DNA of 64,000 nucleotides, from NCBI RefSeq assembly GCF_000931935.2, contig NZ_AZAC01000004.1, forward strand, positions 1 through 64,000, given 5' to 3'. Of the stretch, positions 29,724-62,247 are shown one piece after another; the stretch's first letter is position 1, and each line of letters begins with the position of its first letter. This DNA is from Dethiosulfatarculus sandiegensis (GTDB taxonomy: Bacteria; Desulfobacterota; Desulfarculia; Desulfarculales; Desulfarculaceae). The notes below the pieces were generated by a model. The model was not told the origin of the DNA and searched no databases. It saw only the letters and a program-made list of their open reading frames with translations. The translations under genes and the position numbers were made by a program.

Positions 29724-29728
29724 GAGAA

Positions 29729-33310: not shown

Positions 33311-34698
33311 TGTATAAAGCGGGCCAGCATATACATTTTGTTGGAATAGGCGGCATCGGCATGAGTGGTATTGCCGAGCTTTTGATTAACCTGGGTCATA
33401 AGGTCAGCGGCAGCGACTTGCGGGAAAGCGATATCACAAGGCGTCTGGCCGATATGGGGGCGGAGATAAAAAGCGGGCATCATCCGGATTATGTGAGGGA
33501 TGCCGACGCGGTGGTGGTTAGCTCCGCAGTTTCCGATGACAACCCCGAGGTGGTGGCCGCCATGGGTGAACGCATCCCGGTTATCCCCAGGGCTGAAATG
33601 CTGGCCGAGCTGATGCGCCTTAAATACGGGGTGGCTGTGGCCGGAGCCCACGGCAAGACCTCCTGCACCTCCATGATATCGGTGCTTTTGGCTGCCGGAG
33701 ACTTTGATCCCACGGTTGTGGTCGGCGGCAAACTGGAGGCCCTGGGGTCCAACGCCCGCCTTGGCAGCGGAGACTTTCTGGTGGCCGAGGCCGATGAGTC
33801 GGACGGCTCCTTTAACCGGCTCACCCCCGTGGTGGTGGTTGTCACCAACATGGACAGGGAGCACATGGACCATTACGGCTCCGACGAGGCCTTGGATGAG
33901 GCCTTTGTGCAGTTCATGAACAAGGTGCCTTTTTACGGGGCGGCCATCCTTTGCCTGGACGACAGCCGCCTGGCCGGGTTGATACCCAAGGTGCGCAAGA
34001 GGGTGATTACCTACGGCATGGCCTCTCAGGCCGATTATCAGGCCAGGGATATCTCGTTTGAGGGAGTCAATTCCAGCTTCACCCTTTATGTGAGGGGCGA
34101 AAAAACAGGACGGGTTACGATCCCGGTGCCGGGCAGGCACAATGTGTTGAACTGCCTGGGCGCTTTGGCTGCCTGCCATGAGCTGGGCATGGATATGGAG
34201 ACGGCCATGAAATCCTGCCTGGATTTCGGCGGGGTGAAAAGAAGGTTCGAGATTAAGGGCAAGGCAAGGAACGGGGCTTTGATCATGGATGATTATGCTC
34301 ACCATCCCACTGAGATCAAGGCCACTTTGGAGGCTGCCAGAAACAGCTGGCCAGACCGCAGGCTGGTTATCTGCTTCCAGCCTCACCGTTATTCCAGGAC
34401 CAGGCTTTTATTTGATGACTTTGCCACCTCATTTTACGGGGCGGACCTGCTTTTGGTCATGGATATCTACGCGGCCAGTGAGAAAAAAGACCCCACGGTT
34501 TCGGCCGAGGCCCTGGCCGACGCCATCAGGGATCACGGCCATCGTAATGTTGAGTATGTGGGTAAAAAGGCCCAGGCCAAAGAGCGCCTGGAAAAGCTCC
34601 TGGAGCCCGGGGACGTGGTTTTCACCATGGGCGCGGGTGATGTCTATCATCTGGGAGAAGAGCTGGCATCAGGCCGGGGAGATGATATTGAAGCCTGA
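33310..34698 (+). CDS. murC: UDP-N-acetylmuramate:L-alanine ligase
   Basis: A 462-residue Mur ligase: N-terminal IHFVGIGGIGMSGIAELL, ATP motif VAGAHGKTSCTSMI, DDYAHHPTEIKATL and FQPHRYSRT, all diagnostic of MurC. It attaches L-Ala to UDP-MurNAc. The order murG-murC-murB is canonical. The 3' end overlaps murB by 17 bases. Confidence 0.97.
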   Translation: MYKAGQHIHFVGIGGIGMSGIAELLINLGHKVSGSDLRESDITRRLADMGAEIKSGHHPDYVRDADAVVVSSAVSDDNPEVVAAMGERIPVIPRAEMLAELMRLKYGVAVAGAHGKTSCTSMISVLLAAGDFDPTVVVGGKLEALGSNARLGSGDFLVAEADESDGSFNRLTPVVVVVTNMDREHMDHYGSDEALDEAFVQFMNKVPFYGAAILCLDDSRLAGLIPKVRKRVITYGMASQADYQARDISFEGVNSSFTLYVRGEKTGRVTIPVPGRHNVLNCLGALAACHELGMDMETAMKSCLDFGGVKRRFEIKGKARNGALIMDDYAHHPTEIKATLEAARNSWPDRRLVICFQPHRYSRTRLLFDDFATSFYGADLLLVMDIYAASEKKDPTVSAEALADAIRDHGHRNVEYVGKKAQAKERLEKLLEPGDVVFTMGAGDVYHLGEELASGRGDDIEA

Positions 34699-35593
34699 TT
34701 TCCAAAGGGAACTGGTGAAACTTTTGGGCAAAAGAGCCCGGTTTGACCTTGATCTGGACCGCCTCACCACTTGGGGCGTCGGCGGTCCGGTGCGGTTTCA
34801 TTGCCGGGTGCACACCCCCTTGGAAGCGGCCCAGGTGATATCCCTGGCCAAGCAGGCAAAGGTTCCCTGGATGGTTTTGGGCCGCGGGTCGAACCTCCTG
34901 GTTTCGGATCAGGGGTATCCCGGTGTGATGCTTCGTCTGGCAGGCCCCTTGGCCAAACTTGAGCTTGAGGACGGAACCATAAAGGCGGGTGCGGGGGCCT
35001 CCTTGCCCGCTTTGGTGAAGCTTGCCGCGGTGAATGGATTGAGCGGCCTGGAGTGGGCTGTGGGAATTCCCGCCACTGTGGGCGGGGCCGTAGCCGGTAA
35101 TGCCGGGGCCAATGGCTTTGAGATGAGCGATATCACCGACCAGATAAGCCTGTTGCTTGAGAACGGTGAGATAAAGGCCTTTAAGGGCCAAGAGATAAAA
35201 AGCGGCTACCGGCATCTGGATTTGCCTGCGCAAAGCCTGGTGCTGGAGGCCCTGCTGGAGTTTAAACCGGATGATCCGGCTATGATTCACAGGCGCATGA
35301 AAAGACTTTTGGAGAGGCGTTTGGGCGCGCAGCCCCTGATTAAGCGCACCGCCGGTTCGGTCTTTAAAAATCCTCCCGGCGATTATGCGGGCAGGTTGAT
35401 CGAACAGGCTGGTTGCAAGGGACTCAGTGTGGGAGATGCCATGGTGAGCGTGCGCCATGCCAACTTTATCGAGAACCGGGGCAAGGCCACGGCCAGCCAG
35501 ATAATAGAACTGATGCAGGTGGTCTCCGACCGGGTTAAATCTCAAGCAGGCGTCAGACTCCAGCCTGAAGTGGAGGTGGTGGGGCGTGTTTAA
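34682..35593 (+). CDS. murB: UDP-N-acetylenolpyruvoylglucosamine reductase
   Basis: About 303 residues, FAD- and NADPH-dependent, makes UDP-MurNAc. Features: TTWGVGGPVRF, VLGRGSNLLVSDQGYPG, the flavin-binding stretch GLEWAVGIPATVGGAVAGNA, SGYRHLDL with the type-II-like active site arrangement, and GSVFKNPPGDYAGRLIE. Start: ATG 34682 directly follows GGGGAG, so the TTG at 34688, six bases from that site, may be the true start. The long frame going up to 34289 is only an open frame within murC. It overlaps ftsQ by eight bases. Confidence 0.93.
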   Translation: MILKPDFQRELVKLLGKRARFDLDLDRLTTWGVGGPVRFHCRVHTPLEAAQVISLAKQAKVPWMVLGRGSNLLVSDQGYPGVMLRLAGPLAKLELEDGTIKAGAGASLPALVKLAAVNGLSGLEWAVGIPATVGGAVAGNAGANGFEMSDITDQISLLLENGEIKAFKGQEIKSGYRHLDLPAQSLVLEALLEFKPDDPAMIHRRMKRLLERRLGAQPLIKRTAGSVFKNPPGDYAGRLIEQAGCKGLSVGDAMVSVRHANFIENRGKATASQIIELMQVVSDRVKSQAGVRLQPEVEVVGRV

Positions 35594-36485
35594 ACTCTCC
35601 GCCAAAAAAGGCTCTTTGACCAAGGGGCGGGTGGAAAAGGCGAGAAGTGTCTCTCCCAGGCTCAACCGCCAGAAGGTCAAGCGCCGTCCTTCTCAGAAGC
35701 CCAAGGGGATGAGCCCGGCGGGCAAGGCCTTTTGGAAGGGCCTTTTCAGGGTTTTTGCCATGGCTGTGATCACCCTGTTGGTTTCGGGCGGGCTTTTGGC
35801 CGCCTATGCATCCCTGGCCACCCATCCGGGGTTTCAGGTCAAAAGGGCCGAGATAAAGGGAGTGAAGAGGCTTCCCGAACTGGAAATCTTACGCACCGCG
35901 GGCATAGGCAGCAGGACAAACATCCTGTCTTTACCTGTGGGCGCTATTGAAAAGAAATTAACCGAGATGTCCTGGGTCCGGGAGGCAAGCGTGAACAGGG
36001 TCCTGCCGGATCAGGTGCGCATAACCATAAAGGAGTATGAACCCAAACAACTGGCTTTGGTTGAGGGTGGTTTTTACTATCTCGACGCCGCCATGCGGGC
36101 CTTTGCACCCATGGGGGTGGCGCCGTCTTTGGATCTTCCCCTTTTGACCGGATTGACCAAGGCTGATCTGGTGGATCCTGATGATGACGTCAGGGCTCTT
36201 TTAGATGCATCTTTGGAGTTGTTGAATTGCCTTCCGGCCAAAGAAAAAAAGGCAGGGGGAAGCTTAAGTGAAATTCATCTGGATCGGGTCTGGGGCTTGA
36301 GTCTGGTTTTTTCCGATCTCTTCCCGACTGTGCGAATTGGCAGGGGAGATTTCAAAACCAGGTTGGCGAGGCTTGAAAAGGTCAAGTCCGATCTTCTGAG
36401 GCGGCAGGAGTTGAAGCGGGTTTTGCTCATTGATCTGAGCGATGAAAGGCGGGTTTTTGTTCGCCTTAGAGGAGATTCCCTATGA
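35586..36485 (+). CDS. ftsQ: cell division protein FtsQ
   Basis: A 299-residue bitopic protein. A basic cytoplasmic tail of about 50 residues, one membrane helix (about 55-78, VFAMAVITLLVSGGLLAAYA), a POTRA domain (FQVKRAEIKGVKRLPELEIL to VRITIKEYEPKQLALVEG) and the FtsQ beta domain with RVFVRLRGDSL at its end. It links FtsL/FtsB to the divisome. Start GTG 35586 follows a G-rich site. The usual ddl gene before ftsQ is missing. It overlaps ftsA by four bases. Confidence 0.9.
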   Translation: MFKLSAKKGSLTKGRVEKARSVSPRLNRQKVKRRPSQKPKGMSPAGKAFWKGLFRVFAMAVITLLVSGGLLAAYASLATHPGFQVKRAEIKGVKRLPELEILRTAGIGSRTNILSLPVGAIEKKLTEMSWVREASVNRVLPDQVRITIKEYEPKQLALVEGGFYYLDAAMRAFAPMGVAPSLDLPLLTGLTKADLVDPDDDVRALLDASLELLNCLPAKEKKAGGSLSEIHLDRVWGLSLVFSDLFPTVRIGRGDFKTRLARLEKVKSDLLRRQELKRVLLIDLSDERRVFVRLRGDSL

Positions 36486-37708
36486 GTGTCGAAGGCCAGG
36501 TCATTGTTGGTTTGGATATCGGCACCACCAAAATCTGTGCCGTTGTCGGTGAACTCACCGACGAAGGTATACAGATAATCGGTATGGGCAGCCATCCATC
36601 CGAAGGGCTGCGCAAGGGAGTGGTGGTGAATATCGAAACCACGGTGAACAGCATAAAAAGGGCCGTGGAAGAAGCGGAGATGATGGCCGGCTGTGAAATA
36701 ACCGGGGTTCTCACCGGAATAGCCGGCGGCCATATAAAAGGAATTAATTCTCACGGCGTAATAGCCGTGAAAGGCAAAGAAGTGACCCGCAGGGAAGTTG
36801 AGCGGGTGATAGACGCCGCCAGGGCGGTCGCCATACCTACGGACCGGGAGGTGCTGCACATCCTGCCCCAGGAGTTTATTCTGGACGGTCAGGAAGGCAT
36901 CCAGGACCCGGTGGGCATGAGCGGAGTGAGACTGGAGGCCAAGGTGCATATTGTCACCGGGGCCGTGGCCAGCGCTCACAATCTGATCAAATGCTGTAAT
37001 CAGGCCGGACTGGATGTGGATGACCTGGTTTTACAGTCCCTGGCCAGCGGCGAGGCGGTTTTGACAGACGAGGAGCGTAACCTGGGTGTGGTGCTCCTGG
37101 ACTTTGGCGGAGGCACCACAGACCTGGCCATTTTTCAGGGAGAGGCCATCAAGCACACAGGCGTGCTTGCCTTGGGCGGCAACAACCTGACCACGGATTT
37201 GGCCATGGGTCTGCGCACTCCGCTTAAAGAAGCGGAGAAACTCAAGAAACACTATGGCTCGGCCCTGGTCTCCCTGGTTGCCAAAGACGATGTGGTTCAG
37301 GTGGAGAGCATAGGAGGACAGCGTCCCCGCAGGATCAAGCGCGCCATTGTGAGTGAGATCCTGGAGCCCAGGGTGGAAGAGATACTGACTTTGTTGCAGA
37401 TGGAGGTGGAAAGAAGCGGGGTGACCCAGCAGGCCTCGGGCAGCATTGTCCTTACCGGCGGCTCCTCTTTATTGGAGGGGCTGGTGGAGATGGCTGAACA
37501 GGTATTTAATTTTCCCGCCCGATTGGGGTACCCGACCGGTGTGGGAGGTCTGAAGGAAGTCGTGAATAATCCAATGTACGCGACCGCGGTTGGGCTGGTG
37601 CTTTACGGCGCCCGCAATACGGCGGAGAAGAAATTCCGGATCAGAGACGTGAATATCTTCAACCGTATAACCACCCGCATGCGTACATGGTTTAAGGATA
37701 TTATTTAA
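36482..37708 (+). CDS. ftsA: cell division actin homologue FtsA
   Basis: A 408-residue actin-fold ATPase. Phosphate 1 loop VGLDIGTTKICAVVGE, phosphate 2 loop VVLLDFGGGTTDLAIFQ, adenosine motif IVLTGGSSLLEGL, and the C-terminal amphipathic membrane helix (FNRITTRMRTWFKDII). The 1C domain in place of actin subdomain 1B is implied by the VTGAVASAHNLIKCC region. It tethers FtsZ to the membrane. Twenty-three bases separate it from ftsZ. Confidence 0.96.
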   Translation: MSVEGQVIVGLDIGTTKICAVVGELTDEGIQIIGMGSHPSEGLRKGVVVNIETTVNSIKRAVEEAEMMAGCEITGVLTGIAGGHIKGINSHGVIAVKGKEVTRREVERVIDAARAVAIPTDREVLHILPQEFILDGQEGIQDPVGMSGVRLEAKVHIVTGAVASAHNLIKCCNQAGLDVDDLVLQSLASGEAVLTDEERNLGVVLLDFGGGTTDLAIFQGEAIKHTGVLALGGNNLTTDLAMGLRTPLKEAEKLKKHYGSALVSLVAKDDVVQVESIGGQRPRRIKRAIVSEILEPRVEEILTLLQMEVERSGVTQQASGSIVLTGGSSLLEGLVEMAEQVFNFPARLGYPTGVGGLKEVVNNPMYATAVGLVLYGARNTAEKKFRIRDVNIFNRITTRMRTWFKDII

Positions 37709-37731
37709 ACGCCTTTCGAAGGAGGGTCGAA

Positions 37732-38925
37732 ATGGCTATGGAAATTGAGATGATGGATAACTTGAGCGCTGGAGCTAAACTCCGAGTCGTCGGAATCGGT
37801 GGGGGCGGCAACAACGCCCTGAACAACATGATCGAGTCCGGTCTGCAAGGTGTTGAGTTTATTGCGGCCAACACGGATATCCAGGCGCTGGAGAACAGCA
37901 GGGCCAGGGTGCAACTCCAGTTGGGACGCAACCTGACCCGCGGTCTCGGCGCAGGCGCCAACCCCGATGTGGGGCGTCAGGCGGCCTTGGAGGACCGGGA
38001 CAAGATCAAGGAGCTGTTGAGCAACAGTGACATGGTTTTTGTCACAGCCGGCCTGGGCGGAGGCACCGGCACCGGCGGGGCCCCGGTGGTGGCGGAGGTT
38101 GCCAAGGAGATTGGCGCGCTCACAGTGGCGGTGGTGACCAAACCCTTTGATTTCGAGGGTAAGCGCCGCAAGGAGATGGCTCTTAGGGGTGTAGAGGAGC
38201 TGAAAAAGGTGGTGGACACCTTGATCGTGATCCCCAACACCCGCTTGATGAGCCTGGCTCCTAAAAACGCCCGTTTTCTGGATATGCTCAAGACCGCGGA
38301 CGAAGTGCTTTTGTATGCGGTGAAGGGCATCAGCGATCTGATCATGGCGCCCGGCCAGATCAACCTGGACTTTGCCGATGTGCGGGCCGTGATGAGTGAA
38401 ATGGGCGTGGCTCTTATGGGCACGGGTCAGGCCACCGGCGAGGACAGGGCCATGAAGGCTGCCGAGGCTGCCATCAGTAATCCTCTGTTGGATGATGTGA
38501 AGATCGATGGAGCCAGAGGGGTACTGGTGAACATAACCGCCACCCAGGATATGTCCATAGCCGAGGTGGCAGAGGCGAGCACCTTTATCCAGGAGGCCGC
38601 CCACGAAGATGCCAATATCTTCTGGGGCACGGTTATCGATGATTCCATGGGCGACGATATCCGCATCACGGTTATTGCCACCGGCATTGGCTCGGAGGAA
38701 GAGGCTGCCGTCCACCCGGGCAGTATGCGCAGTGTGGTGAACGGAGCCAATGTGGACCCAAGTGTGGTGGATCATATTGAGATTGCCCGCTATGCCAGGA
38801 ATATGGGGGGAAATGTGGACCAGCGCGGACCGTCCACTCCCGGTTCTCCCAAGGCTGCGGCCTATCCCCTGGGTGATGGCGATGATTATGACGTTCCCAC
38901 CTTTTTGAGGAGGCAGGCGGACTAG
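37732..38925 (+). CDS. ftsZ: cell division tubulin homologue FtsZ
   Basis: A 397-residue GTPase that forms the division ring. The nucleotide site includes IGGGGNNALNNMI, the signature GLGGGTGTGGAP (about residues 104-115), and the T7 synergy loop NLDFADVRAVM. The C-terminal peptide DVPTFLRRQAD binds FtsA. Ribosome site GGAGG lies seven bases before ATG 37732. Structured RNA and a terminator follow within 240 bases, so this is the end of the dcw transcription unit. Confidence 0.97.
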   Translation: MAMEIEMMDNLSAGAKLRVVGIGGGGNNALNNMIESGLQGVEFIAANTDIQALENSRARVQLQLGRNLTRGLGAGANPDVGRQAALEDRDKIKELLSNSDMVFVTAGLGGGTGTGGAPVVAEVAKEIGALTVAVVTKPFDFEGKRRKEMALRGVEELKKVVDTLIVIPNTRLMSLAPKNARFLDMLKTADEVLLYAVKGISDLIMAPGQINLDFADVRAVMSEMGVALMGTGQATGEDRAMKAAEAAISNPLLDDVKIDGARGVLVNITATQDMSIAEVAEASTFIQEAAHEDANIFWGTVIDDSMGDDIRITVIATGIGSEEEAAVHPGSMRSVVNGANVDPSVVDHIEIARYARNMGGNVDQRGPSTPGSPKAAAYPLGDGDDYDVPTFLRRQAD

Positions 38926-39031
38926 CAGCATATAAGGGGCATGAAATAACTACTGATAGAGGCAGGAAAATTTTGACCTCTGTCTTGCATCCACCGGAGA
39001 ATTATTCGTTTTCGGGTTAACGGGTGTAGTG

Positions 39032-50499: not shown

Positions 50500-51591
50500 T
50501 CAATATTGAGGCAATTTCACAACACCGGTTCTTACTATTTTTTTGTTTTGCATTATCGCCGGCTTGGCAATCTCCAGCTTTTCGCCGTTTATCGCCTGAA
50601 ATATGCCCCAAAGCCAGGGCACCTTGCCCGGTATGGTCCCCGTGATCAACACGTTGTTTTCCGCAGAAGCGGTGGCAGAGAGTAAAAACAGGTATTTGCC
50701 GTTTTTAACGGGCAGGGCCAGGAAATGCTCCCTGTCACGTTCACGAGCAACACGCAATTGAGGGGGGAGCCCCAGGTCTTTCCCACGGTTCTCATAGTTA
50801 AGCATGGTAAAGATGTCGGCTTTATGCTTCTTTAGAAACTCTTTTTGCTGCCTGGGGTCTGCCGAGGTCAACATCTGGTTGTATTCCATGTAAATGCTGT
50901 CCCAGATTTTATCTTCCTCTGACCAGTCATTTACCTTGGGCGCACTGTTATGGTTTTTGGGCTGGTCAACAATCGGTTCAGTTTCTTTTTCCGGTGCCCC
51001 TGACAGATTGTTGGGCTCTGTTCTCACTGTTTTTGAGGATTCTGATAAGCTGACCGAGGAGTCGCGCCCCACATAAAATTTTTCATAGTCCGGGGGGGGA
51101 GAGCTCTCGTCCACGAAGCTATCGGTTTCCGATGGATTCCTAGGCTCGGCAGAATAAGGGCCCAGGGGCGTATGGTGTTTATACTTATCTTGAATCAGGG
51201 GGCTGCTGCTCCCATCGTGTTGGCCATGGCTAGGCTCCCCCGTGTCCACCGATGTCCTGTAATTCAACTTTTTTTGAAGGATTTCAATAATTCTCACTAA
51301 ATATTCTATGCTTTCTTCGTGTCTCTTCCCTTCGTTTTTAAAATGGCGTCGTCCTTCGCCAAAGTAGTTATGCGAATCATTTCTTAGCGTTTCCAGTAAT
51401 AAAAACGTGTTGGATTTTTTACTGCTTTCACCTCCATCATCTATGCTCTCTCCGTTTTCATCCCGCAGGTTAAGTTTTAGGCTTAAGACTGTTTTTAGTT
51501 TTTTCAGGAAAACCACGGCAAAATAAATTAGTATCGATAATGCGATCCCACTTATCGTTCCAAAGACAAAAGAAGTGCTGTCTATATCCAT
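50500..51591 (-). CDS. single-pass membrane protein, last gene of the actin/tubulin-like cluster
   Basis: A 363-residue protein that I do not recognise. One membrane helix at about 9-31, followed by KKLKTVL, so the N-terminus should be outside and the rest in the cytoplasm. A helical part (about 55-112, with HEESIEYLVRIIEILQKKL) may form a coiled coil; residues 115-215 are a disordered Ser/Pro-rich linker; the C-terminal 140 residues (from EEDKIWDSIYMEYNQ) form a globular domain ending in a beta-rich half. It starts 63 bases after the actin-like gene. A fitting role is a membrane anchor for the cytoplasmic ATPase or GTPase; this is inference. Confidence 0.7.
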   Translation of the reverse strand: MDIDSTSFVFGTISGIALSILIYFAVVFLKKLKTVLSLKLNLRDENGESIDDGGESSKKSNTFLLLETLRNDSHNYFGEGRRHFKNEGKRHEESIEYLVRIIEILQKKLNYRTSVDTGEPSHGQHDGSSSPLIQDKYKHHTPLGPYSAEPRNPSETDSFVDESSPPPDYEKFYVGRDSSVSLSESSKTVRTEPNNLSGAPEKETEPIVDQPKNHNSAPKVNDWSEEDKIWDSIYMEYNQMLTSADPRQQKEFLKKHKADIFTMLNYENRGKDLGLPPQLRVARERDREHFLALPVKNGKYLFLLSATASAENNVLITGTIPGKVPWLWGIFQAINGEKLEIAKPAIMQNKKIVRTGVVKLPQY

Positions 51592-51654
51592 GCTTATCCG
51601 CCCGACAAGGGGGTCCTTTTTTTGTCGTTCCTTGTAATTTTGCCGTCTTGTTGT

Positions 51655-54600
51655 TTAATCCCTGCTGTTCACAATAAGCAGCTTAAGCAGCTTTTTAAGG
51701 GCAATGATGAATACTGGTTCTCCCTCTGTGGCTGAATATTGACGAATCTGCCTTTCCGATATCACCATGCTTTTTGAATTATCCTCTGCGGATTGTTTTT
51801 TCTTTTGCCAGGACTGGAATTCACTCAGCTCGTCATTAACGTAAGCCGGCAGTTTTCTCTTCAGCTCAGGATAGGCCTTGACGTTTTGACCAAAGCATTC
51901 CTCATACATGGCGATAAAGCCGCTTAATTGGGGGAGTTCCGGGTGAACCCTTAAGTTATCGTCAAAATACTCGGCTTTCAGGATTTCCATATGCCCCAGT
52001 TCATTGTCTGCGGCTATGGCGTCCTCCCCGCACAAAACCTCATAACGGGGATTGGAATAATCCAGGGAAGCCGCATTTTTACGGGAGAGCAGTCCGCAGG
52101 CGACTTCGTGTTTCTGCTCACGGCTGAAGATGAACCTGACCTCTCCGTTCAAGCCGGAGGCCTTTTGGAAAAAATTACGGGCCTGGTCCAGGAATTTTGG
52201 TTCATTTGACTGTGGCTTTTTAATGAGGCTATAGAGCTTGCTGCCCCTGCCGCCCAGGCAGATATCCATACTCTTGGTCAGCGGGTTAAACAGGCCAACC
52301 TTGCTCAGGTGGCGCACCATCAAACCCAGGTAGAAGAGTGTCCCCGCCAAGGCCAGCTTACCGATATCCACCACGTTTTTGTACTTATTAGCCCGGTATT
52401 TATAGAGGTTTTCTTCAAACAGAGGGCTGAAAAGCGGGTTATTCACCAGGCCTTCCAGGCTGTTGATCAATTTGGGTTCATTAGGGCCGTACTCCCTTAG
52501 CTGATCATAGGGTTCATCCAGGCCCAATGTGTTGAGCAGATCCAGACGGTGTGCCAACACTGCGATCAGGGTGTCCCTGCCGCCTAAGCGCAGGGAACTT
52601 TCCCAGAGCATCTTTTGGTGTTGCCATATGGTCAGGTCGCTGGTCCCGCCGCCAATGTCAATGGTGATTACATTACCGGAAAAATGGGCCTCCTTATGCT
52701 TGGCAAAATAAAGCGCCGAGGCCACACTCTCCGGCAGGCTTTCATATCTTTTTTCGATGGGGTCGCCATTCCCCAGCACCTTTTCCAGGGCAACCTCGAA
52801 ACTATGCATATAATCTTGAGATCTGCCCTTCATGGCCAGGGGATAGGCAAAGGCCCAGGTCACCAGCTTGGGGTCTGCGCCCTGGTCCACAACCTCGGTG
52901 AGAGACTGCAAGGCCACCTGGGAGATGAATCTTTCCATGGCCCTTATTTTTTCTTCGCTCTCATCCCATTTCAGGTTGAACAGGGGTTGGATCGATTTGT
53001 CGTTTCCCTGGATCAAATCCAGGGTTGTGCTGAGGTCTTCACCAAAATGAACCAGGCTGGTGAGAACCGGTGGGTGGGTGGATGGCGGATTCTGCTGCCG
53101 GTTGGCCAGGATGCTGAGGAAGGGGACTTTTTGATCCTGGGGAGGAATGAAATATTTGGTGAGAATATTTTCCCAGTCCACCCTGGAGTTTTCCCCGAAA
53201 AGGCCGGAGACCCGGTTGCTGAAACTCATGGCCTGGGGCTCCCTGTCCGGAGGCCTGAAGTAAACCGCGGTGTTGCTGGTGCCGAAATCTATGGCGATCT
53301 CCCAGCCGGTGTCGCCTCCTCCGGCAGGGGGGAGTTCGGGCAATAGCAATACTCCTGCCTGGGGATCGTCTGAATATTTTCGCGCCACCCTTTTATCCGA
53401 GCATAGAATCGCTTCCCAGGGGTGGGCCCCCCAAACCACCGTCTGAGTCATCCCTTCGGTTTGATTACTCCAAAAGGCCATGTCCTCGTTCAGCTGGCCG
53501 GATTGATAAGACATTGCTCCCAGATCAAAGACCCGGTTCAGCCTGTCTTGTTCCGTGTTGGATGATTCCAAAATCCCGGACATAACCTGGGGATTTAAGG
53601 GGTGGTCCAAGAGAAGTTGAGATCTTGGGTTTCCGTTGTAATAGTAAAAAAAATGCTTTAACCCGGAATTATGCAGATTGGGCCAGATCGCGTTTATGCC
53701 AGAGGGACGTTCTTTTTCAATGTGTTCCATCTCCACTATTTCATCGTCTCTGTATATCTTACTCAGATCCACGATTTCGTGTTGGTTGCTTCTGGGCGAA
53801 TGAACCTTAATGGCGAGTTTCACCTCCACCCGCTTTTTGTCCTCGGCATGGCTCAGAGAAAAATTTTCGCGCAGGGCCTTGGGGCCAAGCAGGAATAAAA
53901 CCCAAGGCTTCAAAGGATAAAGCCAGCTTGTCATGGTTCTTCCGTGCCCCTTAAGGCGGCTGCCCCTTAAGTGATAGACCCTTTTAGTGAAAAAGTCTTT
54001 TGGCTCTTTAAGGGCCACACCCTTTTCCCAGAGCCTTTGCATCAGGGCCTTTCTCTCCTCGTTTGAGTATTGGTAATACTCGTGCAGCGAGATTCTGCCC
54101 CAGACCATTATCTGGTTTTCTAATTTGCCAATGGCTGCAGCGAGGTCTTTGTCTACCAGCACAAGGGATATGTTGTTGTCTTTGCTGCCGTTTAAGGAGC
54201 GGGGGCGTAAAAACAGGTCGGAATCCGCCTGTTCCAAGGGGCTTGGGACCGTTTTCAAGGCCTTGAAAAGAACGCCGTCCGGCATTTCTAAAAGGGCTGA
54301 TGATTCATCTTTGAGGTCTATTTCGTATGCTCCCCCCAACCGGGCGGCAATATCGGCCATAAAGGATTCAATATGCTGGATAAGGGGCAGGGCCAGATAA
54401 TCCGTGAGCCTGTCCTGTTGCCTGGTGAGGGTGTTGTTTAGGTTCTTCAGGTAAAAAAACAAAGCCTTCAGATCAAGGTCCGTCAATCCGGGCACCTTCA
54501 GGGGATCGTGTATTTTACCGCCTTTTATCCAGGGTATTTTGGGGTCGTTTATATTGATCGCACCTCTGGCCGGGCAGATCAGGGTGCTCGGTACGATCAT

Positions 54601-55134
54601 GCCGATGGCCTTTTGACCGTAGAGTATGAACCCCAGGCTGTCCCAGGGGCTTTTTTCTTGCCTTAGCGCTTCTCTTCCGTTTGAACCGCTTACCAGCACC
54701 TCCACAGGCGGCAGTTCCCTTAAGACGGAAGGCAGGTTTTTGTAGGGCCCTTTGGTGAGTATTACCGCATTGGGTTTTTTTTCCATTTCGCCCAGGGAAA
54801 CCGGCCTGACCGAGATATCCAGGCCGCAGAATTTGGAGAGCCCCAGAACCGAGATCAGGCCCCGCCATTCCTCCAGGCATCTGGCCTTAAGGGGATGGTC
54901 CTCGGTGCTTAGCCCGGCTGCGAACAACTCAGGCTGGGCCCATGCGTCCGGGATGGAGAACATGGTGGCGTCTTGGGGGGCGAACTGGTTGACGTTGAGG
55001 GCTTCTGACAGGATTTTAAGGAACTTGGGCCCTGTTCCTTCAGAAGACCAATGGCCTTGTTTTTGGGAAGGTGAGATTTGGTGATCTTCTTTTAAAGGGG
55101 GTAGAGCTAATCTGTTATGTCTTTTCTCGGCCAT
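51655..55134 (-). CDS. giant protein with C-terminal actin/Hsp70-type ATPase
   Basis: A 1159-residue soluble protein. The ATPase is about 610-1010. Phosphate 1 is IAIDFGTSNTAVYF (613-626), a connect-1-like helix is PESVASALYFAKH (801-813), phosphate 2 is VITIDIGGGTSDLTIW (822-837), and the adenosine motif is DICLGGRGSKLYSL (957-970). All three nucleotide loops are intact. The 600 residues before it match nothing that I know and contain no membrane helix; a tail of about 150 residues follows. This is far longer than DnaK, MreB, FtsA or ParM. It may be distantly related to SrfB-like proteins, which also have an Hsp70-like fold, but I could not confirm it. It starts 58 bases after the tubulin-like gene. 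Confidence 0.8.
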   Translation of the reverse strand: MAEKRHNRLALPPLKEDHQISPSQKQGHWSSEGTGPKFLKILSEALNVNQFAPQDATMFSIPDAWAQPELFAAGLSTEDHPLKARCLEEWRGLISVLGLSKFCGLDISVRPVSLGEMEKKPNAVILTKGPYKNLPSVLRELPPVEVLVSGSNGREALRQEKSPWDSLGFILYGQKAIGMIVPSTLICPARGAININDPKIPWIKGGKIHDPLKVPGLTDLDLKALFFYLKNLNNTLTRQQDRLTDYLALPLIQHIESFMADIAARLGGAYEIDLKDESSALLEMPDGVLFKALKTVPSPLEQADSDLFLRPRSLNGSKDNNISLVLVDKDLAAAIGKLENQIMVWGRISLHEYYQYSNEERKALMQRLWEKGVALKEPKDFFTKRVYHLRGSRLKGHGRTMTSWLYPLKPWVLFLLGPKALRENFSLSHAEDKKRVEVKLAIKVHSPRSNQHEIVDLSKIYRDDEIVEMEHIEKERPSGINAIWPNLHNSGLKHFFYYYNGNPRSQLLLDHPLNPQVMSGILESSNTEQDRLNRVFDLGAMSYQSGQLNEDMAFWSNQTEGMTQTVVWGAHPWEAILCSDKRVARKYSDDPQAGVLLLPELPPAGGGDTGWEIAIDFGTSNTAVYFRPPDREPQAMSFSNRVSGLFGENSRVDWENILTKYFIPPQDQKVPFLSILANRQQNPPSTHPPVLTSLVHFGEDLSTTLDLIQGNDKSIQPLFNLKWDESEEKIRAMERFISQVALQSLTEVVDQGADPKLVTWAFAYPLAMKGRSQDYMHSFEVALEKVLGNGDPIEKRYESLPESVASALYFAKHKEAHFSGNVITIDIGGGTSDLTIWQHQKMLWESSLRLGGRDTLIAVLAHRLDLLNTLGLDEPYDQLREYGPNEPKLINSLEGLVNNPLFSPLFEENLYKYRANKYKNVVDIGKLALAGTLFYLGLMVRHLSKVGLFNPLTKSMDICLGGRGSKLYSLIKKPQSNEPKFLDQARNFFQKASGLNGEVRFIFSREQKHEVACGLLSRKNAASLDYSNPRYEVLCGEDAIAADNELGHMEILKAEYFDDNLRVHPELPQLSGFIAMYEECFGQNVKAYPELKRKLPAYVNDELSEFQSWQKKKQSAEDNSKSMVISERQIRQYSATEGEPVFIIALKKLLKLLIVNSRD

Positions 55135-55192
55135 TTATCAAACTCCCCTTGGACGGTTTTTCTCGAGAACTCAAGGCATGAAGAAACTCTTC

Positions 55193-56785
55193 TCAGGCAG
55201 CTTGGTTAAACCGGTTTTTCTGGTCGTCGTAGATCCGGCAGTGGTGATAGAGGTGACCAACAAACCATCCCAGACCATCCAGCTCCATTTTGGAGGCCAT
55301 GGATTTTCCCTGTTGCCTGGTGCACATCTTTTCATAGACATCTTCTAAGCTCAGGCCTTTCCCCATCTTCACCAGGTCGGAGAATTCCTCCCGCTGAAAG
55401 CCTCTGTAATCCATCAGTTGCACCTGCCCGGGCTGGAGAGCCCTGGGGCGTTGGGCAAAGGCCTTGACCTGGAACAGATCCGCTCTTTGCTGACTCTCCG
55501 GAAGCGGTAGATAGGAAAGGGAGGCGCCCCACTGAAGGACCATCTTGCTGTATTTTTCCAGGCTCTGTAGGGTGTCCGAGGTTGTGGCATCTGTGGGGCT
55601 CACCTGCTTTTTGGCTAAAAGTCTGCGCCACCAGGGTTGATTTTCATAGTTGGAGGCATTTTCAGGTTTCATGAATGGGAAATAAGAGGCCAGATAGGCA
55701 AAACAGAATCGGACCAGACTGCCGACTCCTTCACGCACGGTCAAGCCGGAGGGGTTTCCGTAATCCAGGGCGGGCAGGTCGTACCAGCTGATTTTTTCTT
55801 CCGGTCTTTTGGCGATGAGATTGCCGGGCAAGGGGTTTGCAAAGAACCGGGTGGCCGCCAGGGCCGCATAGAGCTCCGGCAAAAGCGAGGGGTTGACCTG
55901 GGCCTGGTTGCCTTCGGCAAAGTACCCCAAATTGATCAAGGGGTTCCAGCCAAGAAAAGAAAGGCTGTCAAAAAGCGGCGATTCTTCGTAATGCTCGGAG
56001 AGTAAGAGCCGGTGATAGTATTTAAGGGCCCCCTGGGTCTGTTCAATAAAGGCCCCGTCACTGGCCGCCAACATATCTTCTTCACGTTTGGAGCCGAACT
56101 GAAAATAGGGAAGCATCATGCAGCCGCCTATTTTAAGGGATTCCTTGCGCCCCAGCCCACTCATGGCCTTGTGCAGCCGCCGGGCTATAACCGGCATGCC
56201 CGCCGCGCCGGTTCCGCCGAATATGGAGCCAAGAAGATATATCCTGGCCTGATTGCCCTTTTGGATGGAGTCCTTGACCTTTTGCATGATCATTTTGTCA
56301 AAAGGGGTTCCCGCCATGGTGCTGGCCAGAAAGGCGGCCGCTCCTATGTAGGGCCTGCCCCTGAATCCCACCTTGAGGTCGGCAATACGGTCGTTGGGAC
56401 TGAAAAGGCATTGATAAAGATATTTGACTTCAGGCGACATTGCTTCTGAGCGAAACAGGGCGTCTAAGTTTCTGACTGAACTCACCGGGCACCAGACCGA
56501 TATTTCGCCTGGATCGCCTTGTTTGTCATAGGGATAGGTAAGATCCGTTTTTAAAAACGGTGATCCCTTCAGGCTGTTGTGACCGGAACGCAGATCCTGG
56601 TACAGCTTGGTGTAAAGGCCTAAGGTGTCCTTGCAGCGGGCCAGGTTGCCGTTGGATTCATCCTGATCCACCAGGCCTATGCGCACCGAAGACGGCAAAA
56701 GATTGGCAGCGGCAAGGTGGATAAAGGATTCCACGCATTTGGCCCCAGTGCCTCCTATGCCTATGAGATAGCAATCCACTTCCAT
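55193..56785 (-). CDS. tubulin/FtsZ-like GTPase (Tubulin_2-type)
   Basis: A 530-residue protein. It begins with a glycine-rich nucleotide loop YLIGIGGTGAKCVESF (T1) followed by VRIGLVDQDESNGN, and at about residues 186-196 has GSIFGGTGAAG, matching the tubulin signature GGGTGTG. This fits the bacterial tubulin-like family PF13809, distinct from FtsZ (no FtsZ T7 loop or C-terminal FtsA-binding peptide). The second half has few known motifs. Start ATG 56785 has AGGAGG seven bases upstream; a longer frame to 56815 overlaps the preceding gene and lacks a site. Whether it forms filaments is unknown. Confidence 0.8.
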   Translation of the reverse strand: MEVDCYLIGIGGTGAKCVESFIHLAAANLLPSSVRIGLVDQDESNGNLARCKDTLGLYTKLYQDLRSGHNSLKGSPFLKTDLTYPYDKQGDPGEISVWCPVSSVRNLDALFRSEAMSPEVKYLYQCLFSPNDRIADLKVGFRGRPYIGAAAFLASTMAGTPFDKMIMQKVKDSIQKGNQARIYLLGSIFGGTGAAGMPVIARRLHKAMSGLGRKESLKIGGCMMLPYFQFGSKREEDMLAASDGAFIEQTQGALKYYHRLLLSEHYEESPLFDSLSFLGWNPLINLGYFAEGNQAQVNPSLLPELYAALAATRFFANPLPGNLIAKRPEEKISWYDLPALDYGNPSGLTVREGVGSLVRFCFAYLASYFPFMKPENASNYENQPWWRRLLAKKQVSPTDATTSDTLQSLEKYSKMVLQWGASLSYLPLPESQQRADLFQVKAFAQRPRALQPGQVQLMDYRGFQREEFSDLVKMGKGLSLEDVYEKMCTRQQGKSMASKMELDGLGWFVGHLYHHCRIYDDQKNRFNQAA

Positions 56786-56796
56786 GGGCGAACCTC

Positions 56797-57312
56797 CTAT
56801 TTTTGCAAAGGCCATCTGAACAGGGGCCTGTAACTCACCGGGGCGAAAAATTGGGTGCTTAAGTAATAGGGCAGGCTGAGAAAAAAGATGGCCAGCAATA
56901 TGGCCGTGATTTTTCCCTGCAAGCTGAAATAATCGTCCAAGCCGATAAGAATGCTGAAGACACCCACGGGCAGACAGAGAAGAATGAAGAATAATGTTTT
57001 GAAAAAATTGGTGTTTTTGCGGGCCGTATCAGGCCCGTTGGGGGTCTTTTTGAACATAAGCCAAAGAATGAGAATAGAACAGGCGGCCACCAGGGCAGTG
57101 CTTGCGAACAGGTTGTCACCCAGGTTTTGGGCCACTATGCCCACAGCCGAACCAACACTGAGATTCGATTCGTTGACTGCCGTGTAGTTCAGGAAGAAAT
57201 TTTCAAAAACCCGGCCGCCGAACCAACTCACAAGCACCTTGAAAATTCCGCTGAAAACTGCACTCAAAACCAGACTCAAAAGCGCCTTGACGGTTATTTT
57301 TTCGGGAATCAT
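56797..57312 (-). CDS. four-helix inner-membrane protein of the cluster
   Basis: A 171-residue polytopic protein with helices at about 9-31, 66-87, 104-126 and 133-155. I recognise no family. The loop between helices 1 and 2 (about 32-65) is likely periplasmic, and the loop with KKTPNGPDTARKN is positively charged and so cytoplasmic. GGAGG lies five to seven bases before ATG 57312. It lies 17 bases after the VWA gene and 11 bases before the tubulin-like gene, so it may connect the two compartments. Confidence 0.7.
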   Translation of the reverse strand: MIPEKITVKALLSLVLSAVFSGIFKVLVSWFGGRVFENFFLNYTAVNESNLSVGSAVGIVAQNLGDNLFASTALVAACSILILWLMFKKTPNGPDTARKNTNFFKTLFFILLCLPVGVFSILIGLDDYFSLQGKITAILLAIFFLSLPYYLSTQFFAPVSYRPLFRWPLQK

Positions 57313-57329
57313 AAATATCCTCCCCGGCT

Positions 57330-58835
57330 TTATTCAATGCCGAACGCAAGGCCCAACAGGGCGAAATTCCGATTTCCTAGTTTGTGATTCATTAGAGTTG
57401 TCATTGTGCGATGAAGGCTTCCCAAGTGGGGGGTGCGCTGGAATTCCGCTCCAGGGTCAATGGGAAGGTTGAGGTCCTGGTTCCAGGCACGCATCCATTG
57501 GCTGTTTCTTGCGTTTAGTCTTTGGATGCCAAGGGTTATTTCCCCATAGAAGATTTTTCTGGTGGTTTGTTTTTTGGGGCCGGGGCCTTTCAACAAGACC
57601 TTCCAATCTCCCTCAGCCGTCCGGACCAACCTGGACTTTATTGGAAAAGAATCCCCCGCCATGCCTAGATAACGCCACTTTTCTTTGCAGTCTCCGCTAA
57701 GTTCCGGGTGATAGCGCCACCACTGCTCCCTTGTTTTACGCATGTGGGATACTTCAATGCAGTCGGGAAGCATCTCGTTTCCCAGCTTTATCTCAATTTG
57801 GTTGCCCTTTTGACCGGGAATCAGGTTGAATTGCTGATCTTCGCTTAGGATATGGGTTCTTTCCCGGCATTTAACCAGTTCGGCGGTATGGGTTGCACCG
57901 ACTGTGGTGAGGCAGTCTTTTTGTTTGAGATCGTCCATGGTAATGGTTTTGCTTATGGGATTGGGTAAGAAGACAGCGGTTTTAATTTTGGTTTCAAAAT
58001 CTTCAGCCAGCAGAAAACGACCGTCTTCCTTGAGTTTGCTCAGCAGGTTAACGACAGCCTTATTCTCGCCGATCACCAGTATGTAAAAGGGCAGGCTCGA
58101 ATTTAGGGAAAAGGTGGGTATGCCGGGCAGGTCGTCGATCCTTCCTTCAAACCGGCTCACCACTCCCATGATGCCGATTGTTTTGGGCGGTGTGTTTTCC
58201 GAACCGGTCATGATACTGCGCACCAGGTCCACAGTGGGGATCACTTCGGCCACACAGGTTTCGTGACTTAAAAAAAGATCCGTCACCACCACCGAAAGAA
58301 CTTCCGGCGGCGACTCTTTTATTTCTTCCAAAACCAGGTCCAGGCGGCTCACCGCGTTAAAGGGCAGGCGGGCGTTTCCATCTGATTCGGGTTCTCTTCT
58401 TCTGTACCAATCATGACGGCGTCCGTTTTTCACCAATCCCACCATGGGGTACAGTTCGCGGGATACGTTTATTTCCCTCAAGCAGGAGCCAAAGGCCTTG
58501 AACTGCACCTGGGCGTCTGCCAGGTATCTGTTTTTGGCTAGCATTTCCACGAATTCGCAATAAAGGTAGCCTTGACGCTCCTGGTTTTTTGGCACAAATC
58601 CCCGCATACTGCCTGATCCGTCAAAATAGATCATCAGCTTTTGGGGCTGCTTTGGGGAAACTGAAGGATTGGTTGTTATTCGGCGTGACACCTTGCGTAG
58701 TTCTGGTAATTCGGCCTCGGGCGGCAGGCAATGGGGCGGGTCTGCCTGACAAGCGCTTATGAGGCCGAGCCCAGCCAAAATAAGGGCAACGAAAAACCAG
58801 GCAGGCTTGGTGCAGTTTTCTTTAATGTCCGGCAA
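57330..58835 (-). CDS. VWA-domain lipoprotein, first gene of the cluster
   Basis: About 501 residues from TTG 58835, which follows GGGAGAC at six bases. The N-terminus is then a lipoprotein signal: a hydrophobic stretch FFVALILAGLGLISAC with the lipobox Cys29. A VWA-like domain follows: MIDAS start YFDGSGSM (D72-x-S74-x-S76), and VVVTDLFLSHET with the TD pair that closes the metal site. The rest has no recognised domain. The frame stays open to 59021, but that part contains a terminator hairpin and is not the start. The protein should be anchored on the periplasmic side and bind a partner through a divalent metal. Confidence 0.75.
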   Translation of the reverse strand: MPDIKENCTKPAWFFVALILAGLGLISACQADPPHCLPPEAELPELRKVSRRITTNPSVSPKQPQKLMIYFDGSGSMRGFVPKNQERQGYLYCEFVEMLAKNRYLADAQVQFKAFGSCLREINVSRELYPMVGLVKNGRRHDWYRRREPESDGNARLPFNAVSRLDLVLEEIKESPPEVLSVVVTDLFLSHETCVAEVIPTVDLVRSIMTGSENTPPKTIGIMGVVSRFEGRIDDLPGIPTFSLNSSLPFYILVIGENKAVVNLLSKLKEDGRFLLAEDFETKIKTAVFLPNPISKTITMDDLKQKDCLTTVGATHTAELVKCRERTHILSEDQQFNLIPGQKGNQIEIKLGNEMLPDCIEVSHMRKTREQWWRYHPELSGDCKEKWRYLGMAGDSFPIKSRLVRTAEGDWKVLLKGPGPKKQTTRKIFYGEITLGIQRLNARNSQWMRAWNQDLNLPIDPGAEFQRTPHLGSLHRTMTTLMNHKLGNRNFALLGLAFGIE

Positions 58836-59285: not shown

Positions 59286-60653
59286 TTAAATGACCTTCAT
59301 GCTTTTCCACTTGCCTGTTCGGTAGCGGAAATAAAAGGTTATCCCCAAAAAGGCCATGTAAACCGTGGCCAAGGTCCAGATCGTATATAGTCCGGCCTGA
59401 AAAAAATGAATAGCCGTATAGACTGGTGCAATCATGGCGCAGGTGGAGGCCGCCACCAGGGTCCACATGACAAAACGGGTGTCTCCCGCGCCTTTTATGG
59501 CTCCGCAAAACACCGTGCTCAAACCCTGGCAAAGGATGTAGACCGCGATAAACCTTAGAATCACAATACCCATATCCATGATTGGGCTGTACTCGGAAGG
59601 GCTGAGCCCCTTGGGCCTGAATAAGGCCAATAAAGGTTCCGGAGCCAGGACAAACAACAGCGCCAGACAGATCTGATAGGCAAACACCAGATGCAGGGTG
59701 CTGGTTACCGATCTTTCGCCCTCCGCCACCTGCGCCCTGCCGATGGATTGGCCCACCAGGGTGGTCACAGCCAAATGCAGGCCGACCATGGGCAAAAAGG
59801 CCAGGCTTTCAATGGAAAAGGCAATATTGGTTGCCGTCAGCTCCAGCTTGCCGAGTTGCCCTGTCATGAAGACAAAGAAAGTGGCCGCCGTGATCTCCAG
59901 GAAAAATTGCACCCCGCCCGGAAGTCCGTATTTCATGAGCCTTTTAAAAACAGGCAGATAAAAACCCCGGCTGCGCCATACTCCATATAGCTGGTTGTTT
60001 TTTTTGGTAAAGACCAGGCCTGTAAAAAAAAGGGTGTTTAAGCCCCAGCAGGCGACCGTGGCCAGGCCTGCCCCTTGAATTCCCATCTCCGGCAAACCGA
60101 ACAATCCGTTTATCAGGACATAGTCCAGAGGAATGTTGAATAAGGTGCCCACAATATTGGTGACCATCACCGGCCTGGTTTGGCCCCTGCCGGTGTAAAA
60201 GGAAGACATCGCAACAGTAAGCAGGGCCAAAGGTGAACCCAGGCAAAGAACCCGAAAATAGGTTATCTCAAGCCTGGCAACCTCCGGCGAGTGACCGGCC
60301 CCGTTGAAAAAGGCCTCGGCCGGGAACCAGAAACAGGCCAGCACCGCGCCCCCAACCAAGGCGAAAATGATTCCCTGCCACAGGGATACCCCGACCATTT
60401 CATCTTTACCCGCGCCTGTATACTGAGCCACAAATACGTTTACGTAGTTGATAACTCCCCAGAAAAAAGTCATCAAAAGAAAATTGGCAATACCCGCGGG
60501 CAGGGCTGCGGCTATGGCGTCCAGGGAGTAGGTGCTCAAAAACACCCGGTCTGTAAACTGCATGACCGTGGTGGAGGCCATACTGGCCACCAGAGGCAGC
60601 CCGATGTTAAGCACATCTCGGTAACCGCCCGGTCCGTTCCATCTTTGTATCAT
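59286..60653 (-). CDS. MATE family efflux transporter (copy 1)
   Basis: About 455 residues, 12 membrane helices, MATE/NorM type. It begins IQRWNGPGGYRDVLNIGLPL, as does its neighbour, and has ASMASTTVMQFTDRVFL in helix 1-2 and QSIGRAQVAEGERSV in the second half. It exports organic cations or drugs in exchange for Na+ or H+. I choose ATG 60653 because it aligns with the start of copy 2 and has GGA upstream; ATG 60665 sits at the foot of a strong hairpin. The two copies are clearly paralogous and adjacent. Confidence 0.88.
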   Translation of the reverse strand: MIQRWNGPGGYRDVLNIGLPLVASMASTTVMQFTDRVFLSTYSLDAIAAALPAGIANFLLMTFFWGVINYVNVFVAQYTGAGKDEMVGVSLWQGIIFALVGGAVLACFWFPAEAFFNGAGHSPEVARLEITYFRVLCLGSPLALLTVAMSSFYTGRGQTRPVMVTNIVGTLFNIPLDYVLINGLFGLPEMGIQGAGLATVACWGLNTLFFTGLVFTKKNNQLYGVWRSRGFYLPVFKRLMKYGLPGGVQFFLEITAATFFVFMTGQLGKLELTATNIAFSIESLAFLPMVGLHLAVTTLVGQSIGRAQVAEGERSVTSTLHLVFAYQICLALLFVLAPEPLLALFRPKGLSPSEYSPIMDMGIVILRFIAVYILCQGLSTVFCGAIKGAGDTRFVMWTLVAASTCAMIAPVYTAIHFFQAGLYTIWTLATVYMAFLGITFYFRYRTGKWKSMKVI

Positions 60654-60666
60654 TGTTCTATCCATA

Positions 60667-60712
60667 GCAGGGTCTGAATCAAAGAGCTTTGGCGCTCTTT
60701 ACCAGACCCTGC
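60667..60712 (-). promoter_or_regulatory. long hairpin at the start of MATE copy 1
   Basis: Arms GCAGGGTCTG (60667-60676) and CAGACCCTGC (60703-60712), with a second stem AAAGAGC/GCTCTTT inside. It ends 13 bases before the chosen start codon. There is no T run, so it may control translation or be an RNA processing site rather than a terminator. Confidence 0.55.
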
Positions 60713-60873
60713 CCTATATTTGGTTAAAGACACAAAAGTGCCTTATATCTTTTTGAAAAGTAAAAATGCGGAAGCCTGGGTTACCTTTCCCCTAAGCAGG
60801 GGGCGAAAAAGGCGTTCTAAAAGAGAGTCTCCGGGATTTTAAAAAGGTTACGATCTCCCGGAAAAACAAAACC

Positions 60874-62247
60874 TCATCTTCCGATCACATTCATGCCCTG
60901 CCATTTGCCGGATTTGTAGCGCAGCCAAAAGGCAATGCCCAGGCTAGAGATAAAGGCTGTGGCAACGCACCACACCTCGAAAAGTCCGCCCCCAAACACC
61001 TCCACGGCCAGATAGGCCGGAATGACCATGATGACGATTGAGCAAAAGAGCATGGTCTTCATGACAAAGGGGGTGTCGCCCGCGCCTTTCAATGCGCCGG
61101 AGAAGGTGAGGGCCAAGGCGTCGAAAAAGGTGTAAAGCGAGACAAACCTCAATAACACCACCCCTGTCTCCACCATGGCCTCGAATTCCACTGTTCCCAT
61201 GCCTTGGGGCCTGAAGAGCCTTAAGAGCCACTCCGGGACAAAAAGAAAGACCATCACCACCAGGGCCATGTAGGTAAAGGTGAGGTGCAGGCTGTTGGTC
61301 ACCGCCCTGGCTCCGATCGCCGGTTCACCCCTGCCTATGGCCTGGCCCACAATGGTGCTTATGCCCACATGAAAACCCAGCATGGGCGTAAAGGCCAGGG
61401 AGTTGATGGTAAGGGCTATGTTGGTGGCGGCCAGCTCCAGCTTGCCGAGCCTGCCGGTCATGAACACGAAAAAGGTTATGGCGAAAATCTCCATGAAGAA
61501 CTGGACTCCGCCGGGAAGCCCGAATTTCATGAGCCTGCCAAAAAGTTCGCCGTCAAATCTCCTGGCCCGCCAAACCGCAAACAATTGGTTGTTTTTTTTG
61601 GTAAAGACCAGCCAGATAAAACAAAGGGCCGTGATGCCCCAGGCCATGGTGGTGGCCAGGGCCGCACCTGCTATGCCAAGCTCAGGAAAGATCAACTTGC
61701 CGTTTATCAGGGCGTAGTCCAGGGGGATGTTCATGCAGGCGGCAAAAAGATTGACCAGCATAACCGGTCTGGTGTATCCCCTGCCCGAGAAAAAACAGGA
61801 CAGGGAAACCGATATCAGGGCCGGGCCTGCGCCGAAACAGAGGATGCGGAAATAGATCGCCTCCAGTTTCCTGACTTCCGGTCCATGGCCTCCCCAGATG
61901 AAAAGTTCTTCTGAGAAAAAAGAAACCCCCAGGAGAAACAAGGCTCCCAGCATGGCGCAGTAAAGGCCCTGCCAGATCGAGGCCCCGACCTTTTCCGGCT
62001 CACCGGCTCCGCTGTACTGGGCCACAAACACGTTGGTGTAGTTGATTACTCCCATGAAAAAACAAATAATCACAAAATGTAAGATCCCCGCGGGCAAGGC
62101 TGCTGCAATGGCCTCAAGGGAGTAGTGCCCCAAGAAGATGCGGTCTGTGAACTCCATTATGGTGGTGGAGGCCATACTGGCCACCAGGGGCAGGCTTATC
62201 TGTAATATGCGGCGGTATCCGCCGGGTTGATTCCAGTGTTTCCACAT
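60874..62247 (-). CDS. MATE family efflux transporter (copy 2)
   Basis: A 457-residue MATE transporter, paralogue of the downstream copy. It begins KHWNQPGGYRRILQISLPLV, and both share SMASTT-x-M-x-FTDR-x-FL, PAGI and the KFGLPGGVQFF(M/L)EI stretch. Substrate and coupling ion cannot be told from sequence. GGTGA lies five bases before ATG 62247. A gap of 220 bases with a hairpin separates it from copy 1, so the two may be expressed unequally. Confidence 0.9.
   Translation of the reverse strand: MWKHWNQPGGYRRILQISLPLVASMASTTIMEFTDRIFLGHYSLEAIAAALPAGILHFVIICFFMGVINYTNVFVAQYSGAGEPEKVGASIWQGLYCAMLGALFLLGVSFFSEELFIWGGHGPEVRKLEAIYFRILCFGAGPALISVSLSCFFSGRGYTRPVMLVNLFAACMNIPLDYALINGKLIFPELGIAGAALATTMAWGITALCFIWLVFTKKNNQLFAVWRARRFDGELFGRLMKFGLPGGVQFFMEIFAITFFVFMTGRLGKLELAATNIALTINSLAFTPMLGFHVGISTIVGQAIGRGEPAIGARAVTNSLHLTFTYMALVVMVFLFVPEWLLRLFRPQGMGTVEFEAMVETGVVLLRFVSLYTFFDALALTFSGALKGAGDTPFVMKTMLFCSIVIMVIPAYLAVEVFGGGLFEVWCVATAFISSLGIAFWLRYKSGKWQGMNVIGR

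Follow-up and report, generated by a model that had tools for sequence, protein, structure and literature searches.

A cross-phylum gene cluster joining a short tubulin-like protein and a giant actin-like protein to a candidate VWA lipoprotein

Introduction

To our knowledge, it is rare for an actin-type and a tubulin-type protein to be encoded as partners of their own; in bacteria the known example is FtsA with FtsZ. Other described systems hold some of the components that concern us here. The main text of Makarova & Koonin 2010 (PMC2875224) presents FtsZl1 (Tubulin_2, PF13809) as a tubulin-superfamily GTPase, sporadic in bacteria, that is encoded in operons which often contain VWA genes and sometimes OmpA genes. 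The systems built around GAP1-N2 GTPases include tubulin or HSP70 together with vWA proteins, as separate themes (Kaur et al. 2020, PMC7159879). Zorya, which consists of ZorA/ZorB plus ZorC/D or ZorE, depends on the flow of ions, on binding to peptidoglycan and on the tail of ZorA (PMC11890865).

The locus described here lies in a window of 64,000 nucleotides, by which we mean the whole stretch of DNA analysed (Dethiosulfatarculus sandiegensis, contig NZ_AZAC01000004.1, positions 1 to 64,000). A preliminary description made from the letters alone had proposed that five adjacent genes of this window encode a trans-envelope machine, in which cytoplasmic actin-like and tubulin-like proteins act through two membrane proteins on a periplasmic VWA protein.

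Results

The cluster occupies positions 50500-58835, all on the minus strand, and is transcribed from the VWA gene through the four-helix, tubulin-like and actin-like genes to that of the single-pass protein. Gene 1 (57330..58835, 501 aa, TTG start) encodes a VWA-type lipoprotein with a signal peptide, a LISA/C lipobox, an intact DGSGSM MIDAS and the sequence VVTDL, and gene 2 (56797..57312, 171 aa) an inner-membrane protein with four hydrophobic segments. Gene 3 (55193..56785, about 530 aa) encodes the short tubulin-like putative GTPase, gene 4 (51655..55134, 1159 aa) the giant putative ATPase of the actin/MreB/Hsp70 superfamily, whose nucleotide domain lies at about residues 610-1020, and gene 5 (50500..51591, 363 aa) a coiled-coil protein with a single transmembrane segment at residues 9-27 and a conserved C-terminal cytosolic domain of about 120 aa. 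The five open reading frames, the gaps of 11-63 bases, and the motifs and membrane segments named in the preliminary description were all found in place. The intergenic gaps from gene 1 to gene 5 are 17, 11, 58 and 63 bases. The second of these follows from the choice of start codon: the tubulin-like reading frame opens at an ATG at 56815, overlapping gene 2, and its relatives begin at Met11 (56785), which is likely to be the true start.

None of the five window proteins passed a Pfam or NCBIfam cut-off and PADLOC gave no meaningful match to any of them, so annotation pipelines would miss the set. A PHROGs search of the window proteins yielded nothing useful, and promoter and terminator scans gave matches at chance level only. 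The surroundings hold MATE-like transporters, phosphoglucomutase and signalling genes; two adjoining MATE-type transporter genes, recognised by eye, share the cluster's strand and lie upstream of it (59286-62247, minus). About 11.6 kb from the cluster, a plus-strand run of genes (25614-38931) that looks like a dcw cluster ends in matches to an ftsA-type gene (37079-37522) and a canonical ftsZ (37780-38256). The five-gene cluster resembles the FtsZ-FtsA divisome pair in that proteins of the tubulin and actin superfamilies would work together at the membrane, but it is not orthologous to that pair. Since the host has its own FtsZ and FtsA, encoded in the window, as well as two MreB proteins, the five-gene set is additional to division and shape.

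The window tubulin-like protein carries GGTGAKC and the tubulin signature GSIFGGTGAAG, and the family alignment shows little or no variation in the T1 (GGxG) and T4 (SxFGGTGAxG) loops. It does match PF13809, the model by which the preliminary description had wished to check it, but at 22.2 bits, below the 27-bit cut-off; among 65 family members, 59 match Tubulin_2 (PF13809) and 26 match Tubulin. An AlphaFold (AF2) model built from an alignment of the 65 relatives (pLDDT 87.4, pTM 0.92) gave a tubulin/FtsZ-type nucleotide domain, and Foldseek returned 20 matches at E<=0.001, overwhelmingly tubulins, with FtsZ among them and most at probability 1.00. By its motifs and its modelled fold, the protein is a member of the tubulin/FtsZ superfamily. 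The model aligns to known tubulins over the nucleotide-binding half only, with TM-scores of 0.2-0.4, and because the match is confined to that half, polymerisation may have been lost.

All three actin/Hsp70 nucleotide loops are found in the 1159-aa protein: phosphate-1, DFGTSNT (616-622); phosphate-2, DIGGGTSD (826-833); and adenosine, GGRGS. In the family alignment Asp616, Gly618, Glu802, Asp826, Gly828, Asp833 and Gly962 are invariant, and Glu802, within TES.A, stands at the position of the catalytic Glu of Hsp70 and MreB. An AlphaFold model from a 44-sequence alignment (pLDDT 81, pTM 0.73) contains an MreB/Hsp70/actin-type nucleotide domain, for which the top Foldseek matches were MreB, DnaK/BiP (Hsp70), Arp2/3 and actin. 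MreB_Mbl is matched by 24 of the 44 family members and FtsA by 21, and the family profile found MreB in the PDB at 1e-6. Loops and predicted structure together indicate that this protein is a member of the MreB/Hsp70/actin superfamily; its N-terminal 600 residues or so are without recognised relatives. An hhalign match between the actin-like and tubulin-like profiles was rejected as evidence of homology, being a chance match of glycine loops. One family member also matches SrfB (PF07520) weakly (E 0.004). SrfB, the large protein of the srfABC operon, is similar in size to the actin-like protein, and we know of no link between srfABC and tubulin or VWA proteins.

No Pfam VWA model matched the window lipoprotein, and a Pfam search of 54 members of its family gave a single weak match, to VWA_CoxE. 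The VWA identity claimed in the preliminary description therefore rests on the MIDAS motif, the Asp of VTDL and the position in the operon. That Asp is invariant across the 54 aligned members, of which 48 have a MIDAS of the form [DE]x[ST]xS and 21 the strict DxSxS. By the positive-inside rule, gene 2 is predicted to have both termini in the cytoplasm (N-in/C-in), and many of its relatives share a (S/T)P...P.GA motif in the C-terminal tail. Positive-inside counts predict an N-out/C-in orientation for gene 5, whose coiled coil and end domain would lie in the cytoplasm.

A single-sequence scan of genome contigs found no relatives and an alignment query was required; with the tubulin-like alignment, a scan of GTDB gave at least 562. 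From these relatives 80 loci were fetched, in about nine groups: Alphaproteobacteria including SAR11, Cyanobacteria, Poribacteria, Nitrospirota, Aminicenantes, Acidobacteriota, Negativicutes, Clostridia and Bacteroidota. The genes stay together across phyla; with this, and with the tubulin-type and actin-type domains of the predicted structures, neither outcome that the preliminary description had named as refuting came about. The actin-like gene follows the tubulin-like gene in 75/80 loci, with a median gap of 17 bases, and an ORF with several transmembrane segments lies directly upstream of the tubulin-like gene in 76 loci. A VWA gene lies close to the tubulin-like gene in 67/80 (47 co-directional, 20 divergent) and is absent from the fetched DNA of nine others, while two Bacteroidota loci (L076, L077) have VWA and tubulin-like genes without an adjoining actin-like gene. 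Relatives of gene 5 were detected by profile in many of the 80 loci; in SAR11, where the profile missed it, hhalign aligned the product of the downstream gene with its C-terminal domain (probability 96.5, E 1e-9). A relative from the window genome's own family, at 29% identity, keeps the same five-gene order. Because the arrangement recurs at 20-45% identity across many phyla with key loop residues invariant or nearly so, it is more than chance.

Some loci depart from the simple arrangement. Gene 5 is multiplied in cyanobacterial loci and some of them have a second actin-like gene; in L027, L034, L037 and L056 it encodes 730-994 aa and lies further downstream, among several copies of the gene 5 family. 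In a Rhodospirillales bin (L011:1-15113) the series VWA, membrane protein, tubulin-like and actin-like occurs twice in tandem, one actin-like ORF reaching 1352 aa. SAR11 genomes are usually streamlined, and in those examined (Pelagibacteraceae, flanks of L008-L016) the operon has a trypsin-like protease gene and one for a DUF805/GYF-type membrane protein in its vicinity. We make no claim of archaeal occurrence, because the one contig titled Euryarchaeota (L069) is similar to the cyanobacterial loci L067/L068 and has probably been mis-binned.

The tubulin-like and actin-like genes share their inheritance. Among 194 cyanobacterial genomes the tubulin-like gene occurs in 18 and the actin-like gene in 19, with both in 18 and the actin-like gene alone in one (p=1.8e-24, counting genomes as if unrelated), and the distance matrices of their trees correlate at r=0.95, against 0.86 for tubulin-like and VWA proteins. 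The system is sporadic and behaves as an accessory module: it is present in 2/20 genomes of the window's family and 2/395 of its phylum, in 5/198 genomes of the phylum to which a Bacteroidota genome belongs, and in 2/147 of one SAR11 family. When plasmid proteins were searched, the actin-like protein turned up on plasmids of cyanobacteria and on one Prevotella replicon, and the loci inspected there have the same genes in the same order as the window, with the VWA gene sometimes divergent. One of the plasmid relatives is named 'tubulin-like doman-containing protein' and the others are hypothetical or unknown.

In 17/80 loci a ZorA-like gene comes right after gene 5, and in 13/80 a ZorB-like gene then follows. 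The ZorA-like protein has three transmembrane segments and a long coiled-coil tail and scores as ZorA (MotA/ExbB). The ZorB-like protein is of the MotB/OmpA type, with a motif of the FWxxxxDxM type and the transmembrane Asp kept in 15/15 sequences (the 13 loci and two IMG/VR contigs). These linked genes score against the PADLOC ZorA/ZorB models, with the ZorA matches lying partly in coiled coil. No such gene stands beside the window cluster. Inspection by eye of the genes that follow the motor, and of the neighbours of the other loci examined, recognised neither ZorC/D/E nor a nuclease. The two IMG/VR contigs (L088, L089) carry the operon with the ZorA/B-like pair, L088 also with a DUF4357 protein; since the neighbours tested on them give little viral signal, no phage claim is made for the operon.

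Discussion

Our preferred reading, to which we give a probability of roughly 0.58, is that the five genes encode one membrane-tethered GTPase/ATPase machine coupled to the VWA lipoprotein across the envelope. The short tubulin-like GTPase and the giant actin/Hsp70-like ATPase would make up an NTP-driven complex in the cytoplasm, most likely filamentous or acting as a large switch, tethered to the inner membrane by the C-terminal tail of the four-helix protein and by the cytosolic coiled coil and end domain of gene 5. The state of this complex would be coupled through the four-helix protein to the lipoprotein outside the inner membrane, which may bind an envelope ligand by its metal site. Elsewhere among the phyla this core would be wired to a ZorA/ZorB-like, ion-driven, peptidoglycan-anchored motor, and this wiring suggests that the module serves a device that senses or moves the envelope, either as its output in the cytoplasm or as its partner in producing force. 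To the operon, its shared inheritance, the folds, the predicted topology and the linked motor genes, the reading adds presumed direct contacts, putative filaments, a supposed direction of signalling and a suggested purpose. The trans-envelope arrangement of the preliminary description fits the predicted topology of cytosolic NTPases, two inner-membrane proteins and a lipoprotein outside, and it gains strength from the ZorAB-like motor to which the core is linked in other phyla; the action on the VWA protein is something we infer. Against our reading stand the lack of motor genes beside the window cluster, the confinement of the tubulin match to the nucleotide-binding half, the variation of the MIDAS across the VWA family, the two Bacteroidota loci without an adjoining actin-like gene and the nine loci without a VWA gene in the fetched DNA.

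The system could in principle be a divergent FtsZl1 operon for membrane remodelling, as proposed in 2010, which we think very unlikely. The two have in common a tubulin-superfamily GTPase, a VWA gene, an OmpA-domain protein in some genomes and a sporadic distribution (PMC2875224). The link drawn in the preliminary description to PF13809 systems is partial, since the tubulin-like protein forms a distinct short family. FtsZl1 proteins are mostly about 1000-1150 aa long (mostly 900-1170 aa for the classical ones of the same genome set) and score 200-380 bits against PF13809, whereas the window family is about 500 aa long and scores 19-39 bits (27-39 in some cyanobacterial relatives), and it does not have the form of about 1000 aa with a coiled coil and a helical C-terminal region. 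Some cyanobacteria hold both families. Window-type loci have the giant actin-like ATPase, the four-helix protein and the single-pass adaptor as constant parts and no kinase or P-loop GTPase seen in the core, and an actin-like or Hsp70-like partner is absent from the 2010 main text. We also considered the cyanobacterial FtsZl1 neighbours named in that review (Arthrospira, Thermosynechococcus) as examples of this system and rejected them; the named genes are not obvious in L044/L020, as would be expected of two families that are separate. Also unlikely to us, although less so, is a conflict system of the chaperone-like, threshold-regulated kind that Kaur et al. 2020 describe, with the actin-like protein as an Hsp70-type chaperone and the VWA protein binding peptides. 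Hsp70s are among the top Foldseek matches of the actin-like model, and systems centred on a GTPase that include vWA proteins along with tubulin or HSP70 are on record (PMC7159879). In that account, however, the tubulin theme and the HSP70 theme do not overlap and both are built on GAP1-N2 GTPases, whereas here the tubulin and actin/Hsp70 superfamilies share one operon whose core shows no GAP1-N2 GTPase, GrpE or DnaJ. Neither Pfam nor NCBIfam recognised a P-loop GTPase among the five window genes, nor was one recognised among shared neighbour clusters, and the closest sequence matches of the actin-like protein are MreB and FtsA, not Hsp70.

Anti-phage defence of a Zorya-like kind is possible but doubtful. 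The VWA lipoprotein, with the motor where there is one, would sense injection or envelope damage, and the tubulin/actin pair would assemble as the effector. The patchy presence in the window's family and phylum, in cyanobacteria and in SAR11, the copies on plasmids and on the two IMG/VR contigs, and the PADLOC scores of the linked genes are in keeping with such a role, and about a fifth of the loci add a long-tailed MotA-like protein with three transmembrane segments, most of these also a MotB/OmpA-like protein with the conserved Asp. Against it, no defence island is visible around the window cluster, the five proteins themselves drew no meaningful PADLOC match, the ZorA similarity falls partly in coiled coil, and reading by eye recognised no Zorya effector or nuclease beside the examined loci, tubulin, actin and VWA proteins standing in the effector's place. 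Tubulin and actin folds serve DNA segregation, and some copies of the operon are on plasmids, yet a TubZ-like or ParM-like role in segregating plasmids or chromosomes is hardly credible here: most of the copies found lie outside named plasmids, the set always includes membrane proteins and a lipoprotein, and no DNA-binding adaptor was seen in the core. Set against the open-licence PMC papers, the five-gene system is not FtsZl1/VWA, GAP1-N2 or Zorya, because a defining feature of each is either lacking or unproven in it; by analogy, all of them may be useful guides to how it works.

On the open-licence PMC literature, it seems to us an evenly balanced proposition that this is an undescribed machine shared across phyla, in which actin- and tubulin-superfamily NTPases would form the cytoplasmic half of an envelope device with a purpose other than cell division; in some lineages a Zorya-type ion motor would drive the device or be what it reports on. 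The operon spans SAR11, cyanobacteria, Bacteroidota and Clostridia, is mostly annotated as hypothetical, and would offer a tractable system in which two cytoskeletal folds may cooperate at a membrane. Through the ZorAB-like motor of its relatives, ion-driven motors and cytoskeletal NTPases may be connected with each other and with the sensing of the envelope or defence against phages.
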